Below, in pieces: positions 6,775-25,271 of a stretch of 64,000 bases of DNA. Within the stretch, counting starts at the first letter, position 1, and the number at the start of each line of letters is the position of its first letter. This stretch comes from an uncultured Candidatus Poseidoniales archaeon (lineage in GTDB: Archaea; Thermoplasmatota; Poseidoniia; Poseidoniales; Poseidoniaceae), in assembly GCA_905182125.1 (NCBI GenBank), contig CAJJAV010000009.1, positions 1-64,000 on the forward strand. The letters are read 5' to 3'. The notes under the pieces are model-generated. The model had not been told where the DNA came from. It saw only the letters and a list, made by a program, of their open reading frames with translations, and searched no databases. A program made the position numbers and the translations under genes.

Positions 6775-7779
6775 ATGGTCAAAGACAACTGGGACGAACT
6801 GCACGACACCAAACACAACCGTTTCAACCGACGCAGTCGGAAATCGAAAGGCGGTCCCTCTTCAAAATCACGCAACCTCGATGATGAGTACGCAGAGTCT
6901 GAAGAAGATAAGTTTCTCAGCAACCTCGCTTCCAAACAGAGCACCTATGGGTGGATGAAAGAAGCTCGATACAAGCGGATGTTCCGCGACATCGAAACGA
7001 AAATCCAAGGAGCCATGGGAACGGGAACGTTCGATTGGGTCGATCGTCGCGTCTTTGACCAGGTCTTTGACCGCCTCACCTTGATGTCGCTGTATAAACT
7101 GATGAAAACAGGCGTCATCGATACCCTTGACTATCCAATCGCAAGGGGGAAAGAAGCGCACGTTTTCCACGGTACCAACATTGACGGTGGATCTGTTGCT
7201 GTGAAAATCTTTCACACATCAAATGCCGTTTTCAAGAACCTCGTGCAGTACATCGAAGGCGATCCAAGGTTCGGTGGCCTTCGCCGCAGGCACCGGGATC
7301 TGGTTGACATTTGGGTTCGAAAAGAACACAGGAACCTCTCCCGTTTGTCCCGTTGGGGTTTGAACGTGCCCAAACCGTTAGGCATCCACAAGAACGTCTT
7401 GGTGATGGACTACCTCGGTCATGAAACCGGTTCCTCTCCGAAGTTAAGAGAAGTTCAGATCGATGAGCCACAAGAGGTGTTTGATGATCTGCTGGAATTC
7501 CTTGCCGTCGCCTGGCAAAAAAGCAACCTCGTACACGCTGATTTCTCTCCGTTTAACATTCTGTGGCACCAAGGTCGTGCCGTCGTGATCGATGTTGGTC
7601 AGGCTGTGGTCCAAGGCCACCCAAAGGCGGAAGAGTTCCTGGTTCGTGACGTTACACGCCTTGTTGAATGGGGCGTAAAAAACGGTCTGGAAGTGACCCT
7701 TGCTGAAACAATGTATGAGGTGCTCAACATGAACCTCGATCACGTTGAACAAATCGTGTATGATGACGAAGAAGAGTAA
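6775..7779 (+). CDS. rio1: Rio1-family atypical serine kinase
   Basis: Atypical protein kinase of late small-subunit ribosome maturation, 334 residues. The order is a basic N-terminus (residues 1-35), the RIO nucleotide loop ARGKEAHVFHG (123-133), catalytic lysine in VAVKIF (K144), the Rio1 block NAVFKNLVQYIEGDPRF, the catalytic loop LVHADFSPFNIL (D256, N261) and metal-binding VIDVGQAV (D273). It starts 36 bases after the aIF-1A stop in the same direction and ends flush against the convergent KH-domain gene. The eIF1A-Rio1-KH grouping is common in archaea and links initiation with 40S-like subunit assembly. Confidence 0.95.
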   Translation: MVKDNWDELHDTKHNRFNRRSRKSKGGPSSKSRNLDDEYAESEEDKFLSNLASKQSTYGWMKEARYKRMFRDIETKIQGAMGTGTFDWVDRRVFDQVFDRLTLMSLYKLMKTGVIDTLDYPIARGKEAHVFHGTNIDGGSVAVKIFHTSNAVFKNLVQYIEGDPRFGGLRRRHRDLVDIWVRKEHRNLSRLSRWGLNVPKPLGIHKNVLVMDYLGHETGSSPKLREVQIDEPQEVFDDLLEFLAVAWQKSNLVHADFSPFNILWHQGRAVVIDVGQAVVQGHPKAEEFLVRDVTRLVEWGVKNGLEVTLAETMYEVLNMNLDHVEQIVYDDEEE

Positions 7780-20857: not shown

Positions 20858-22948
20858 ATGCAACCAATTCAGCGTGTGGCGATTGTCGGTGCAGGAAACA
20901 TGGGTTCCGGCATTGCACAGAAGACGGCTCAGGAAGAATTCGATGTCCAGATGGTGGACCGAGAACAACAATGGGTTGACCGGGGACAAGGAATCATCCG
21001 TGATTTTCTCTCAGAAGCAGTTGAACGCCGTATCTTCTCACCAGCACAAGTTGAATCGATCCAAGGTCGAATCACCGGCGTGGTTGGCGTGGAAAACACC
21101 GCTGCAGACACCGACCTCGTCATCGAGGCAGTGTTCGAAGATTTTGATGTGAAGACCGCTGTGTTCACAACCCTTGATGCAGCCTGTGGCCCCGACACAA
21201 TCCTTGCCTCCAACACCTCTTCGCTGTCGGTCAATGCGCTCGCAGAAGCAACCGGCCGAGCCGATCGATTCGTTGGTTTGCATTTCTTTTACCACCCAGC
21301 AAAGAACCGCTTGGTCGAAGTCATTCCAGCAACATCATCGAGCCCAGAAACGGTCGAGAAGGTTGTTCAATACTGCAAGATGCTTGGAAAGGTCGTCATT
21401 GTTTGTGGCGATCGGCCTGGCTTTGTAGTCAATCGGTTTTTCGTACCTTGGCTCAATGAAGCATGCCTGCTCTTGGAAGAAGGCATTGCCACTGCTGCCC
21501 AAATTGATGCAGCAGCTCGCAAGGCGTTCCGGATTGGCTTGGGACCTTTCGGATTGATGAACCTCACCGGTCCTCCGATTGCTTTGCACTCCACCGACTA
21601 CTTGGCTGAACAACTCCACACGCCTCGGTACGTTGGTGCACAAAACCTTCGTGACTTGATTGAAGCCAACGAACATTGGGATGTCTCAGGCGATGAAGCA
21701 TTCTCTTCTGAACAGTATACCACCATTGCAGAACGCCTCTACGGTGTTGTCTTTGGCGTTGCAGCTCAGATTGTTGAAGAAGGCGTTTGTTCCATGGAAG
21801 ACGTCGACCGTGGTGCCAAGGTTGGCCTTCGTTGGGCCCGTGGTCCGTTCGAAATGATGAATCGCGTTGGTATCAAAGAAGCCAACAGAATGGCTGAGGC
21901 TTATGCTGATTTGAGTGCAAAAACCGATCCTGAACGTGCCTGGTCAGTCCCCGCTTTTTTCACTGAGCAAGCCACTGCAAACACGCCATGGCATTTCGCT
22001 TATGTTGACACCTCGATCGAAGCTGGTGTTGCGACCCTCACCATCAACCGTCCAGAGGCCATGAACGCCCTCAACGAAACCGTCGTTGGTCAATTAAGCG
22101 AAGCCTTGGACGAGGTCAATGCCGATCCTTCAGTGCATACAATTGTGCTCGATGGTGCTGGAAAGGCCTTCGTCGCTGGTGCTGATGTCAAGTTCTTTGT
22201 CGACAAAATCCGTGCAGACTCAATACCCGACATCGTGACGTTCACTGCAGACGGTCACACCATGCTCAACAAATTGGAATCGTCTTCGAAGACAACCATT
22301 GCTTTGACGACTGGACTTGCCCTTGGTGGCGGATTAGAACTCGCTCTGGCCTGCGATTATCGCATTGGCACCCGTCGCACACAATTCCGCTTCCCAGAGA
22401 CTTCGATTGGCATCTATCCTGGATTGGGTGGTTCACAACGCCCGGCCCGAATTTGTGGCATCCCAGCAGCGCGCTGGGCCGTGCTTGCAGGAAACTTCAT
22501 GGATGCACAAACAGGCCACGATCTGGGCTTGTTGACTCATCTGGTCGATGTAGCCTCGGTCAACACATGCATGGCGGAACTCGCTTCTGCTGGAAAACCA
22601 GCCAACAAATACCCCGGAGCGCCTGCGAACCCTTCGAGCGCTGTTGCTGCATTTGCCACGTCCTTTTTCAGCGATGACAACATGTCAGCGATCATGAATG
22701 GGGCCTGCCCAGATGGCTTCAATGCTGAAGACAAATCCGTTGCTCGTCAAATGAAATCACTGTCCCGAACAGCCCCGATCGCTCTCAGAATGGCGAGCGA
22801 CCTGATCGATGCAACAGCCTCAACTTCGTTGGCAGACGGCCTGCAAATGGAACTGGATCATTTGACCGAGATTTTCTCAACTGAAGATTCGCTGGAAGGG
22901 CTCTCCGCCCTGATAGAGGGACGGAAACCCGCCTACACCAACAATTGA
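20858..22948 (+). CDS. 3-hydroxyacyl-CoA dehydrogenase/enoyl-CoA hydratase fusion
   Basis: Bifunctional beta-oxidation-type enzyme of 696 residues. The N-terminal NAD domain carries AIVGAGNMGSGIAQ and VIEAVFEDFDVK, then ILASNTSSLSV, GLHFFYHPAKNRLVEVIP and the C-terminal dehydrogenase lobes (GDRPGFVVNRFFVPWLNEA). From about residue 380 comes a crotonase domain: LTINRPEAMNALNE, GAGKAFVAGADVKFF (oxyanion hole), GLALGGGLELALACDYRIG and PETSIGIYPGLGGSQR. The dehydrogenase-first order is the archaeal arrangement, opposite to bacterial FadB. I use ATG 20858 (MQPIQRVAIVGAG); 20816 is an alternative. Its 3' end overlaps the convergent orphan by 72 bases. Confidence 0.92.
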   Translation: MQPIQRVAIVGAGNMGSGIAQKTAQEEFDVQMVDREQQWVDRGQGIIRDFLSEAVERRIFSPAQVESIQGRITGVVGVENTAADTDLVIEAVFEDFDVKTAVFTTLDAACGPDTILASNTSSLSVNALAEATGRADRFVGLHFFYHPAKNRLVEVIPATSSSPETVEKVVQYCKMLGKVVIVCGDRPGFVVNRFFVPWLNEACLLLEEGIATAAQIDAAARKAFRIGLGPFGLMNLTGPPIALHSTDYLAEQLHTPRYVGAQNLRDLIEANEHWDVSGDEAFSSEQYTTIAERLYGVVFGVAAQIVEEGVCSMEDVDRGAKVGLRWARGPFEMMNRVGIKEANRMAEAYADLSAKTDPERAWSVPAFFTEQATANTPWHFAYVDTSIEAGVATLTINRPEAMNALNETVVGQLSEALDEVNADPSVHTIVLDGAGKAFVAGADVKFFVDKIRADSIPDIVTFTADGHTMLNKLESSSKTTIALTTGLALGGGLELALACDYRIGTRRTQFRFPETSIGIYPGLGGSQRPARICGIPAARWAVLAGNFMDAQTGHDLGLLTHLVDVASVNTCMAELASAGKPANKYPGAPANPSSAVAAFATSFFSDDNMSAIMNGACPDGFNAEDKSVARQMKSLSRTAPIALRMASDLIDATASTSLADGLQMELDHLTEIFSTEDSLEGLSALIEGRKPAYTNN

Positions 22949-23827
22949 ATTGGCCTTCTTGAGTTCTTTTTTCAACCCGTTTGAAAGCGTTGAGACTCGG
23001 AAGGAAGTGGCGATGTCATTGATCATTGCAAGAACGTATACTGCAGTGTAATCAGCGCTTGGAAGTTCCGTCTGACCAAATTCCGGCTGAATGCAAAAGA
23101 TTTGCTTTGTCTCTTGACATTGAATCTTTGGCACCCCCCTCGAACTGCCGTTTGGTTGAATCAGCCAGACCAGTCCAGAATCGCCTTTGACAACAAGACC
23201 ACCGTCTCCGTTGACAAGGGTTCGGTCAGGTTGTTCAGCAACGGTTTGATGCAAGAACTTGAGGGCACGGCGTTCATTTTGGGGGAGTCTATATTCGAGG
23301 GTTAAATGCATACGAAGCGCCTGTTGCCTCAACCTTAAAGCGTTCAAAACGCCATGATGGCCATGCCATATTTCCACGAACAGCTTCGTCGTTCTGAAAT
23401 CGATCTTTCCTTGTAATACACCGCGTTTTTCGTAGGAACACACCCCTTCCTCATCCAAAATCATGTATGGTGCAAGGGCATGCCACTCAGTTTGAGAAAG
23501 GTGCGCACCTTCCTTCAGCGCCCTTGCTTCCAGTTGGTGGACCAGGTTTTCATCAATGTAGCCCATACAATGCATCATCAATTCTGCGACGGTATTTGGG
23601 ATCTCAACGAGTGGGAATGATGGTTTTGGTTCATCTTGTAAACCGCGTAACAGTGTTTCATAATCGAGCCTCGGTGCCTCAAAAAATGGTGTTGCATCAA
23701 AGGACTCAGGTTCTGGTAAGTGGGTGTTCCAGCCGCGAGCAAGTTTTTGCCGTTGAGATTTTTTAGGCGACCATGCATGGCATAAAACGCAATTATTCCC
23801 GCAACAGTCATCGGGTCCTATGGTCAT
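22877..23827 (-). CDS. Orphan protein with CC-x3-C-x2-C N-terminus, last gene of E1-JAMM operon
   Basis: A 316-residue protein of unknown function. The N-terminus has DDCCGNNCVLCHAW, a compact four-cysteine site resembling the oxidoreductase-like N-terminal motif (CCGxxCxxC) known from short domains. The middle is helical; the C-terminal third reads like a mixed alpha/beta domain (GGLVVKGDSGLVWLIQPNG, KQIFCIQPEFG, YTAVYVLAMINDIATSF). The ATG at 23827 has an AGGTG ribosome site 6 bases before it and starts 9 bases after the previous gene's stop. Whether the C-terminal domain is an E2-like fold with the cysteine in FCIQ is a speculation from context. The gene runs 72 bases into the convergent fusion gene. 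Confidence 0.72.
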   Translation of the reverse strand: MTIGPDDCCGNNCVLCHAWSPKKSQRQKLARGWNTHLPEPESFDATPFFEAPRLDYETLLRGLQDEPKPSFPLVEIPNTVAELMMHCMGYIDENLVHQLEARALKEGAHLSQTEWHALAPYMILDEEGVCSYEKRGVLQGKIDFRTTKLFVEIWHGHHGVLNALRLRQQALRMHLTLEYRLPQNERRALKFLHQTVAEQPDRTLVNGDGGLVVKGDSGLVWLIQPNGSSRGVPKIQCQETKQIFCIQPEFGQTELPSADYTAVYVLAMINDIATSFRVSTLSNGLKKELKKANSIVGVGGFPSLYQGGEPFQRIFS

Positions 23828-23836
23828 TTGAATCAC

Positions 23837-24076
23837 CTAAGCGTTTTCATTTTGGAGGTCAACCATCTGTTTGATCAAGACCTTGAGGTCAATCGTTTCC
23901 TGGGTTTCCTGGGCAAACTCAATGCGGTTCTTCACAGCTCCAAGGAACGCTTCATCAGGCTCATGGCCGAGGAATTCGGTCACCACGTCGACCAAACTCG
24001 TCCCCATGCCCAATGCAAGAGCAAGGCGTGCCTTCCGGCATTCCTCATCGTCCTTGGGATGACGAACTCCGGTCAT
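23837..24076 (-). CDS. 79-residue helical protein in E1-JAMM operon
   Basis: Small gene beginning MTGVRHPKDDEECRKARLAL. Its ATG overlaps the TGA of the JAMM gene (ATGA), so translation is coupled, and it ends 9 bases before the next ATG. The protein is predicted all-helical and acidic (FLGHEPDEAFLGAVKNRIEF, LKVLIKQMVDLQNENA). It lacks the beta-grasp pattern and the C-terminal Gly-Gly expected of a ubiquitin-like modifier. No family was recognised; it may be an adaptor or subunit for the neighbouring enzymes. Confidence 0.75.
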   Translation of the reverse strand: MTGVRHPKDDEECRKARLALALGMGTSLVDVVTEFLGHEPDEAFLGAVKNRIEFAQETQETIDLKVLIKQMVDLQNENA

Positions 24077-24630
24077 ACATTCATCTCCTGCATTGTTGTT
24101 GAATGGAGGCGTTCGTAGTAAGCCTCCCATGGCAAAACCGGTTCAGCCGTCCAAAGATGAAGCGGACCGCTTGGCATGATCCGTAGGGATGTTTGCTCGA
24201 TTGTGTTGAAGGATTCGTTCAGCGCTTGCTTGATGCCGGGGGATCCAAGAACCAACGCTCTTGAGACAATGGTTCCAGCGATGGCCAGACTTCTGGTGTC
24301 GGTGCCACTCCAATATGCCTCAAAACCCGGGTGGGTATGCGTCCACACTTTGAACGGTGCAACGCAACCAACAGGTGGCGCAAGAGCGACGCGCCCAGGG
24401 CTCCCCCAATCAACGGAAACTGTGTCTTCAGCATCGATCAGCACTGATGTTTCTAGTCCCGCCAAGAGCGACAGGGTATAGACCACATCCCACCGTTCGA
24501 GAAGAGCGGCTTTCGATTGGACTCCAATCAACTCCTCATTGGTGACCTCCCTTGCCGTTGCCAAAGCACACAAGCGCTCCCATTCTGCGCTCGACACGTC
24601 GAGTTGGTCCAAATTTGGAATGAAAATCAT
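24073..24630 (-). CDS. JAMM/MPN-type metalloprotease
   Basis: A 185-residue protein with a complete JAMM zinc site: WTHTHPGFEAYWSGTD gives H98-x-H100, seven residues, S108, two residues, D111. A glutamate upstream (E60 or E68) could complete catalysis. JAMM proteases cleave isopeptide or peptide bonds after ubiquitin-like tails, or process sulfur carriers. The start overlaps the stop of the E1-like gene by ATGA and the end overlaps the next gene the same way. The pairing with an E1-like enzyme is typical of prokaryotic ubiquitin-like pathways; the modifier itself is not visible nearby. Confidence 0.85.
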   Translation of the reverse strand: MIFIPNLDQLDVSSAEWERLCALATAREVTNEELIGVQSKAALLERWDVVYTLSLLAGLETSVLIDAEDTVSVDWGSPGRVALAPPVGCVAPFKVWTHTHPGFEAYWSGTDTRSLAIAGTIVSRALVLGSPGIKQALNESFNTIEQTSLRIMPSGPLHLWTAEPVLPWEAYYERLHSTTMQEMNV

Positions 24631-25271
24631 GCGCTCACCTCAGAAACTGCTGGGAAGTTGAAAGCCCCATAGGTCAGGGACCCCATCGCTTGCACTGGAG
24701 GCTGATTTCCTCTCAGATGTTGAACCACCCATTGTGCTCCATAAGCCGCAGCAACAGCGAATCCAAATTCGAGGTTTCCATCCTCGAGTGCTCCAGGGTG
24801 CTGGCAACTCATCGGCTCGTGGTCGGGCGTCATGTGGTTGACCAAATGTTGTGACGATTCCGAACTGAGCATCACGTACCCATCACCCCCACATCGTAAA
24901 TCGAGCCATGGAGTTCCTGTTGCATGAACAAGACGGCGCGGTTCGGGACGATCGACGCAAGCGACGACCAAATCATAGCCTTCGAGTTGGTGAGGTTGAC
25001 GAAGGTTTTCCGCGCAAGCAACCACCTCAATACCGCTGCCTTGTTCGCCCCATCGCGATGCCAGAGCCTCAACCTTTTTCAGACCTAAATCTGCTTCAGT
25101 GTATCTTTGGTGGCCTAAGTTTCCAGCTTCGACGACATCGCCGTCCATCAGGGTAATTTGAGCATCAAGCCCCAAGCGCTGGAGTGCTGGAATCAACAGT
25201 TCAATCAAATTGGTGCCGATGCCACCAACGCCAATAAGGGCCATTCTTTTTACGGTACTTTCGATGTTCAC
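24627..25271 (-). CDS. E1/ThiF-like adenylating enzyme
   Basis: Minimal ThiF/E1 adenylation domain of 214 residues. The Rossmann loop is ALIGVGGIGTNLIELL; the next blocks are LMDGDVVEAGNLGHQRY (acidic nucleotide binding, Asn and Arg), DLGLKKVEAL (conserved Lys), YDLVVACVDRPEPRR and PWLDLRCGGDGYV. A late cysteine in SCQHPGALEDGNLEFGFA is where E1 cysteines or zinc ligands usually sit. Such enzymes adenylate the C-terminus of a ubiquitin-like or sulfur-carrier protein. The start is GTG at 25271, or ATG at 25244. It lies 24 bases after a glycosyltransferase and overlaps the JAMM gene. Confidence 0.87.
   Translation of the reverse strand: MNIESTVKRMALIGVGGIGTNLIELLIPALQRLGLDAQITLMDGDVVEAGNLGHQRYTEADLGLKKVEALASRWGEQGSGIEVVACAENLRQPHQLEGYDLVVACVDRPEPRRLVHATGTPWLDLRCGGDGYVMLSSESSQHLVNHMTPDHEPMSCQHPGALEDGNLEFGFAVAAAYGAQWVVQHLRGNQPPVQAMGSLTYGAFNFPAVSEVSA

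Follow-up and report, generated by a model that had tools for sequence, protein, structure and literature searches.

Several kinds of ubiquitin-like (Ubl) system have been described in prokaryotes. Among the bacterial operons catalogued by Iyer et al. in 2006, operon 6d encodes a Ubl together with a JAB protein, an E1, an E2-like protein and a helical protein, and operon 6e encodes a poly-Ubl of two or three domains, an E1-JAB fusion and an E2-like protein; this operon group includes PRTRC (PMC1779556). The Bil system has an E1, an E2 and the JAMM protease BilC, by which its tandem two-domain Ubl, BilA, needs to be processed (PMC11354881). In Caldiarchaeum subterraneum, the tail of a pro-Ubl is removed by an Rpn11-like JAMM, exposing GG, after which E1 and E2 act (PMC5654768). 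Here we describe a four-gene cluster of an uncultured Candidatus Poseidoniales archaeon that encodes an E1-like adenylating enzyme (E1), a JAMM/MPN metalloprotease (JAMM) and two orphans, a 79-residue protein (S79) and a 316-residue protein (P4), the latter with a C-terminal domain of a family that we call E2L (E2-like). The cluster lies in a 64,000-nucleotide stretch, below called the window (positions 1 to 64,000 of contig CAJJAV010000009.1, assembly GCA_905182125.1).

Judged from its relatives, the window genome is a metagenome-assembled one of Candidatus Poseidoniaceae (Marine Group II, MGII), and these archaea are among the most abundant in the ocean. On the basis of gene content, gene order and linkage, co-occurrence, conserved catalytic residues, a predicted beta-grasp fold and di-glycine ends, we think it likely that the four genes form the enzyme part of a dedicated system for Ubl conjugation in the Poseidoniales and their viruses; conjugation itself is predicted. 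For one MGII genome, an earlier survey reported genes of the RING and UCH types and no such Ubl system (PMC4327156). We found no report joining magroviruses with ubiquitin or MGII with ubiquitin-like in a search that covered neither subscription-only journals nor two central papers on magroviruses, where an earlier mention is possible, and the literature naming Poseidoniales and ubiquitin together concerned unrelated matter.

The probable modifier and its co-occurrence with E1 and E2L

The original prediction, made from the DNA letters of the window, held that the modifier and the E2 were missing or unrecognizable and that the two orphans might fill these roles. Two related loci, L102 and L104, encode a T7-like single-subunit RNA polymerase (PF00940, E = 1e-46), P4-like proteins and a small open reading frame ending LPGL[IV]GG plus a tail, followed by E1 and JAMM. 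We built a profile from this small open reading frame and ran it against the window's own genome. It found a 145-aa gene on contig 26, unlinked to the cluster, which encodes two tandem Ubl domains ending LMPGLVGG and MVPPLVGG, the second followed by MAKAEC. The modifier is therefore neither missing nor an orphan. S79 was rejected as a modifier because it is predicted to be helical, lacks GG and did not turn up at the viral loci, and P4 because it is 316 residues long, has an invariant cysteine and does not end in GG.

The tandem Ubl gene, with two to six copies, occurs across the genus and family, and the Thalassarchaeaceae have single copies of 71 to 73 aa; none was found in 390 genomes of the same phylum outside the order. 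Relatives of the Ubl adjoin E1 in viruses, in mobile elements and in one Thalassarchaeaceae lineage, and at two loci (L156 and L157) an E1-JAMM fusion comes right after a single Ubl. Among 131 Ubl domains, all 62 viral ones and 59 of the 69 cellular ones end exactly in GG. The other 10 cellular domains end in AG; they come from one clade (L137, L140, L146, L159 and L165) in which both repeats end PALQAG or PALLAG though the genomes have E1.

An AlphaFold model of a viral Ubl relative had the order beta-beta-alpha-beta-beta-alpha-beta, with a predicted local distance difference test score (pLDDT) of 82, and its Foldseek list was dominated by ubiquitin, SUMO and ThiS. In hhalign, the Ubl profile aligned with ubiquitin/NEDD8 in register to the final GG (Gly76), scoring above 60 of 60 shuffles; the resemblance to ThiS was seen with both programs, again with GG in register. 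When the PDB was searched with profiles of Ubl and E2L, no significant match was returned. The modeled fold and the terminal glycine are those expected of a small beta-grasp modifier.

In the Poseidoniaceae, the tandem Ubl gene (L147, positions 6945 to 7200, and relatives) sits between a 2-thiouracil-desulfurase-like gene and genes for a 49-aa zinc-ribbon (RpoP-like) protein and a replication factor C (RFC)-like protein, and in some Thalassarchaeaceae the Ubl gene adjoins those for FtsZ and ribosomal protein L15e. Tandem Ubl genes also appear to break assemblies (contig ends in G001, G016, G023 and G050), and the gene would therefore be hidden from metagenome surveys.

We searched for E1, Ubl and E2L separately in 100 related genomes and found all three in 44 and none in 43. 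Fisher p values were 8e-17 for E1 and Ubl, 5e-21 for E1 and E2L and 1e-19 for Ubl and E2L; these values ignore shared ancestry and therefore overstate the number of independent events. Even so, the pattern is striking, given two families and unlinked gene positions. E2L was present in 50 of 50 genomes with E1, and no genome bearing E1 or Ubl was without it. Ten Thalassarchaeaceae genomes had all three genes, 29 had none, and one lacked only E1. Six genomes had E1 and no Ubl: in four of them the contig breaks off at the Ubl site or no more than a few hundred bases from it (once inside the last 20 residues of Ubl), and in the other two the whole locus is lacking, so we regard these six as assembly gaps and not as exceptions. 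The claim that the E1-JAMM pair marks a Ubl-conjugation system is upheld, and the original interpretation as a whole was partly supported. The window genome also encodes proteasome subunits.

Chromosomal, viral and mobile loci

An E1 scan over 85,000 species genomes returned 101 relatives, of which 80 were kept. In about ten genomes of the genus, all four window proteins recur in the same order and at 48 to 95% identity. E1, JAMM and S79 follow one another in this order in 72 of the 73 chromosomal Poseidoniaceae (MGII) loci with enough downstream sequence, mostly at a single chromosomal site adjoining the same 3-hydroxyacyl-CoA dehydrogenase gene. Conservation of the four-gene arrangement is far beyond chance, and the possibility, raised with the original prediction, that the cassette might not be conserved together in relatives does not hold. 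Because P4-like genes follow the triad in only 11 of the loci with readable downstream sequence, we take the triad as the core and P4 as a linked extra in some clades. S79 was also found at two Thalassarchaeaceae loci (L295 and L296). One Poseidoniaceae E1 locus (L106, CALDQY010000051) is labeled as from an uncultured Rhodobiaceae bacterium, probably by a binning error. In L031/L043 (G003), frameshifts split P4 and the adjoining dehydrogenase gene and the end of JAMM is like that of another clade, reflecting sequencing errors or a mosaic locus.

Searching with the E1 proteins from two IMG/VR contigs gave 121 viral relatives, 80 of which were kept; the viral loci total 87, with some overlapping contigs counted twice. 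Ubl, P4-like (E2L), E1 and JAMM genes lie in this order within about 10 kb in 61 of the 87, and most of the others are cut by locus ends. The viral Ubls are 65 to 89 aa long, and every one of them closes with GG and zero to two extra residues. Neighboring genes encode a TFIIB-like protein (between the P4-like gene and E1), a TCP-1/cpn60 chaperonin, replication factor C, an ATP-dependent ligase and ribonucleotide reductase. This set of neighbors suits magroviruses (order Magrovirales), which infect MGII archaea (PMC12999244), and we refer to the contigs as probable MGII viruses, which may be magroviruses. INPHARED phages held no close relatives of the viral E1, Ubl or E2L. In a tree with poor rooting, the viral E1s formed their own long-stemmed clade, and recent viral capture of a host E1 is therefore not supported. 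Three IMG/VR contigs of 90 to 140 kb (L122 to L124) encode E1-like proteins that are more remote, at about 35% identity, with no recognizable Ubl, E2L or JAMM nearby.

E2L, Ubl, E1 and JAMM genes are also clustered, in this order, at L151, L152, L158 and L160. On most of these Poseidoniaceae metagenome-assembled contigs, together with L102, the T7-like RNA polymerase (PF00940) or a homologue is encoded upstream of the set. The contigs with the T7-like polymerase probably represent another type of virus or mobile element in these archaea, separate from that of the IMG/VR contigs. The densest cluster seen was on a 7.5-kb contig (L162, G067) with three E2L genes, Ubl, E1 and JAMM.

The same chemistry might serve antiviral defense, as in Bil or in the cyclic-oligonucleotide-based antiphage signaling system (CBASS), with the viral copies acting as counterdefense or being captured versions. 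The set is carried by viruses of these archaea, its presence is patchy in the Thalassarchaeaceae (11 of 40 genomes), it has been lost together from 14 of 60 same-genus genomes, and the PADLOC E1-E2 and BilD models match E1 weakly (E = 0.002 for BilD). However, the Poseidoniaceae triad occupies one conserved chromosomal site next to housekeeping genes and seems to have been passed on vertically, the Ubl gene adjoins rpoP- and RFC-like genes, and no defense-island context or effector gene was seen. The single chromosomal site favors regulation, whereas patchy loss and viral copies favor conflict with viruses; on balance we consider a defensive role unlikely.

E1, JAMM and the E2L family

The four-gene arrangement first described proved exact to the base, with all four open reading frames on the minus strand (Table 1). 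The E1/JAMM and JAMM/S79 junctions are each 4-base ATGA overlaps, and 9 bases separate S79 from P4. The operon had been said to start with a glycosyltransferase. A glycosyltransferase gene in the same direction does end 24 bases upstream of E1, but it is immediately upstream in just 38 of 68 testable loci, and we rule it out as a member of the system and see it as local synteny; none was seen upstream of E1 at readable Thalassarchaeaceae or viral loci.

Table 1. Positions in the window of the four genes and of their predicted functional residues
Feature	Position	Strand	Description
E1-like adenylating enzyme	24627..25271	-	214 aa, GTG start; single ThiF domain
E1 Cys156 codon	24804-24806	-	Cys in SCQ
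JAMM/MPN metalloprotease	24073..24630	-	185 aa; E60 and HxHx10D motif
JAMM HxHx10D, HTHPGF[DE]AYWSGTD	codons 24298-24339	-	Invariant
S79, 79-aa helical protein	23837..24076	-	Third gene of the chromosomal triad
P4, 316 aa	22877..23827, stop included	-	C8-x4-C13-x2-C16 cluster at the N terminus, helical center, E2-like (E2L) domain at the C terminus
E2L domain of P4, residues 183-292	22952..23281	-	alpha-beta-beta-beta-beta-Cys-alpha (AlphaFold); Gly215, Cys245, Asp259 and Asp271 family-invariant
P4 Cys245 codon, predicted catalytic cysteine	23093..23095	-	Family motif ICI[DHQ]

The E1 matches the Pfam family ThiF (E = 2.8e-19). Its top NCBIfam match, PRTRC_ThiF (TIGR03736), scored 56.9 bits against a cut-off of 144.75, every score against the MoeB/UbaA and ThiF equivalog families was far below cut-off, and its profile reached Cap2 with an E value of about 5e-6. 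Across 11 divergent rows, the G14xGGIG nucleotide loop, D43/D45, N51, Q55, K66, D107 and Cys156 are invariant. These adenylation motifs and the predicted catalytic cysteine are consistent with the E1 of a Ubl system. JAMM matches Pfam Prok-JAB weakly (0.014), but its motif is nonetheless complete (HTHPGFEAYWSGTD, i.e., HxHx10D), and E60 and this motif are invariant among relatives. Its PDB relatives are of the Rpn11 type, the best being the Caldiarchaeum Rpn11-like protease (E = 0.005), and the residues are those predicted for a deconjugating or processing JAMM.

Neither S79 nor P4 belongs to a credible Pfam family; a Cas3_HD match of P4 (E = 0.078) was below cut-off and was ignored, and the P4 family is not known to Pfam, NCBIfam, PADLOC or PHROGs. 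Iterated searches tie P4 to the E2L family of cells and viruses, whose members have 230 to 850 aa and share a domain of about 100 aa with the motif ICI[DHQ]..PLGD......L.ND. In 101 of 101 distinct domains, one Gly, one Cys and two Asp residues do not vary. Genomes encode up to five members; the window genome has three, for besides P4, contig 6 encodes one of 803 aa and contig 10 one of 258 aa. Paralogues of about 700 to 800 aa (L033 to L041) are encoded beside conserved genes for thioredoxin-like, TFIIB-like and PD-(D/E)XK helicase-nuclease proteins.

In an AlphaFold model, P4 shows a helix, four strands, Cys245 and a helix, with a spacing of 12 residues from Cys to helix, as in E2 enzymes. 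We also aligned E2L by hhalign with four eukaryotic E2s, whose sequences were checked solely by mutual alignment. The alpha1-alpha2 span was aligned with the conserved Cys on the catalytic Cys, and the score was 19.6, compared with 11.3 ± 2.0 (maximum, 16.6) in 100 column shuffles. A canonical E2 (PF00179) was absent from 59 of 60 genomes, including every E1-positive one; the sole match was partial and in a genome without E1, and we rejected it. By its invariant cysteine, predicted topology and alignment register, P4 is probably an E2 in unrecognizable form. The suggestion that the orphans fill the missing roles probably holds for P4 as an E2 and falls for either orphan as the modifier.

Alternatively, Ubl may be conjugated with P4 and E2L serving as a Ubl-binding reader, an adaptor or a preferred substrate and E1 transferring Ubl directly, as thought for archaeal SAMPs. 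The fold evidence for an E2 is weak, the E2L proteins differ widely in size and carry large additional domains as well as Cys clusters at the N terminus, and most Poseidoniaceae loci have no E2L beside E1. Against this, the cysteine is invariant in a G-x-ICI context like that of E2s, co-occurrence with E1 is strict, gene order beside Ubl and E1 is fixed in viruses and mobile elements, and the register on the catalytic Cys exceeded all the shuffles, which makes such a role rather improbable.

Proposed mechanism and relation to known systems

It is very improbable that E1 instead makes a thiocarboxylate on a ThiS-like carrier with JAMM only trimming the precursor: the Ubl does resemble ThiS and ThiF is among the single-domain E1s of similar size, but in the window genome contig 28 encodes a separate MoeB-type E1 and contig 4 a ThiS-family protein, no sulfurtransferase was seen at readable loci, and a cofactor route does not agree with Ubl genes of two to six tandem copies, a JAMM, a Cys-bearing E2L family or complete sets in viruses, so the sulfur carrier elsewhere that had been offered as a target is disfavored.

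In the conjugation system that we propose, JAMM would trim the tandem Ubl precursor after each di-glycine and would probably also take Ubl off targets, as its motif and the Caldiarchaeum Rpn11 suggest. E1, judging by its invariant motifs, would adenylate the C-terminal glycine of Ubl and load Ubl on Cys156. Ubl might then move to Cys245 of P4 and to the 803-aa and 258-aa paralogues, which, acting like E2s, would attach it to target lysines. At a guess, S79 may assist the chromosomal version or serve it as an adaptor.

Several observations weigh against this proposal. One clade's Ubl ends in AG and not GG, the modeled Ubl was a viral member and not the window genome's own, and its Foldseek E values were 0.015 and above. 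The P4 model reached a pLDDT of only 70; although structure prediction, which had been suggested for the orphans, gave P4 an alpha-beta4-Cys-alpha order that fits an E2, Foldseek found no significant match for it (a chain of a bacterial E1-E2-Ubl complex ranked second, with E = 2.8), and the hhalign probability for E2L and E2 was only 2.8%. For these last two reasons we call P4 a probable and not a proven E2. E2L has no HPN motif and no hhalign similarity to PRTRC protein B. No E3 was identified and no RING found, and the scheme does not account for S79, a conserved companion in the triad.

It is possible, if doubtful, that archaea and viruses each run complete Ubl systems with separately evolving E1s, that P4/E2L is a new, possibly independently evolved Ubl-conjugating class multiplied into paralogues, and that virus and host tag each other's proteins in infection. 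If confirmed, the system would add an archaeal Ubl lineage outside the Aigarchaeota, Crenarchaeota and Asgard archaea, an unrecognized E2-like family with several members per genome, and complete virus-encoded Ubl systems in archaea.

The closest described systems are bacterial operons 6d and 6e, including PRTRC, which have a comparable component set and supply the top NCBIfam match of E1. The Poseidoniales genes differ in being split over the chromosome and in being archaeal and viral rather than set in a plasmid ParB/PRTRC context. Membership in PRTRC was rejected: E1 scores 57 bits against the 145-bit cut-off, Ubl and E2L have no detectable relation to PRTRC proteins C and B (hhalign was not significant, and there were no NCBIfam matches), and no ParB context was seen in the window or at readable loci. 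Bil also has a tandem Ubl with JAMM, E1 and E2, here probable, but BilD has two adenylation domains and the Poseidoniales E1 is a single 214-aa ThiF domain matching BilD weakly, and the CEHH motif of BilB is not conserved in E2L, where only the Gly, Cys, Asp and Asp are fully invariant; membership in Bil was rejected on the single-domain E1 and the missing CEHH motif. The Caldiarchaeum system shares an archaeal Ubl and JAMM, the latter being the best PDB relative of the window JAMM, but it has a canonical UBC E2, a larger E1 and a RING E3 in place of a single-domain E1 and an unrecognized E2-like family. CBASS type II (Cap2/Cap3) likewise pairs a JAMM with an E1 bearing a catalytic Cys, and the E1 profile reaches Cap2. 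However, Cap2 is an E2-E1 fusion that conjugates a cGAS-like enzyme, with no Ubl, whereas the Poseidoniales have a separate Ubl and a stand-alone E1, on which grounds membership was rejected; no cGAS-like gene was noticed among readable neighbors, though no profile search was aimed at cGAS. The archaeal SAMP/UbaA system also has a beta-grasp modifier activated by an E1-like protein, but in the window genome a MoeB-type E1 and a ThiS-family protein are encoded besides, and the equivalog scores of the window E1 are far under cut-off, which sets it apart from the MoeB/UbaA and ThiF families. The best reading of these comparisons is that the system is a new variant among prokaryotic Ubl systems, one that would work like 6d/6e, Bil and Caldiarchaeum and yet lacks the marks of PRTRC, Bil and CBASS type II.

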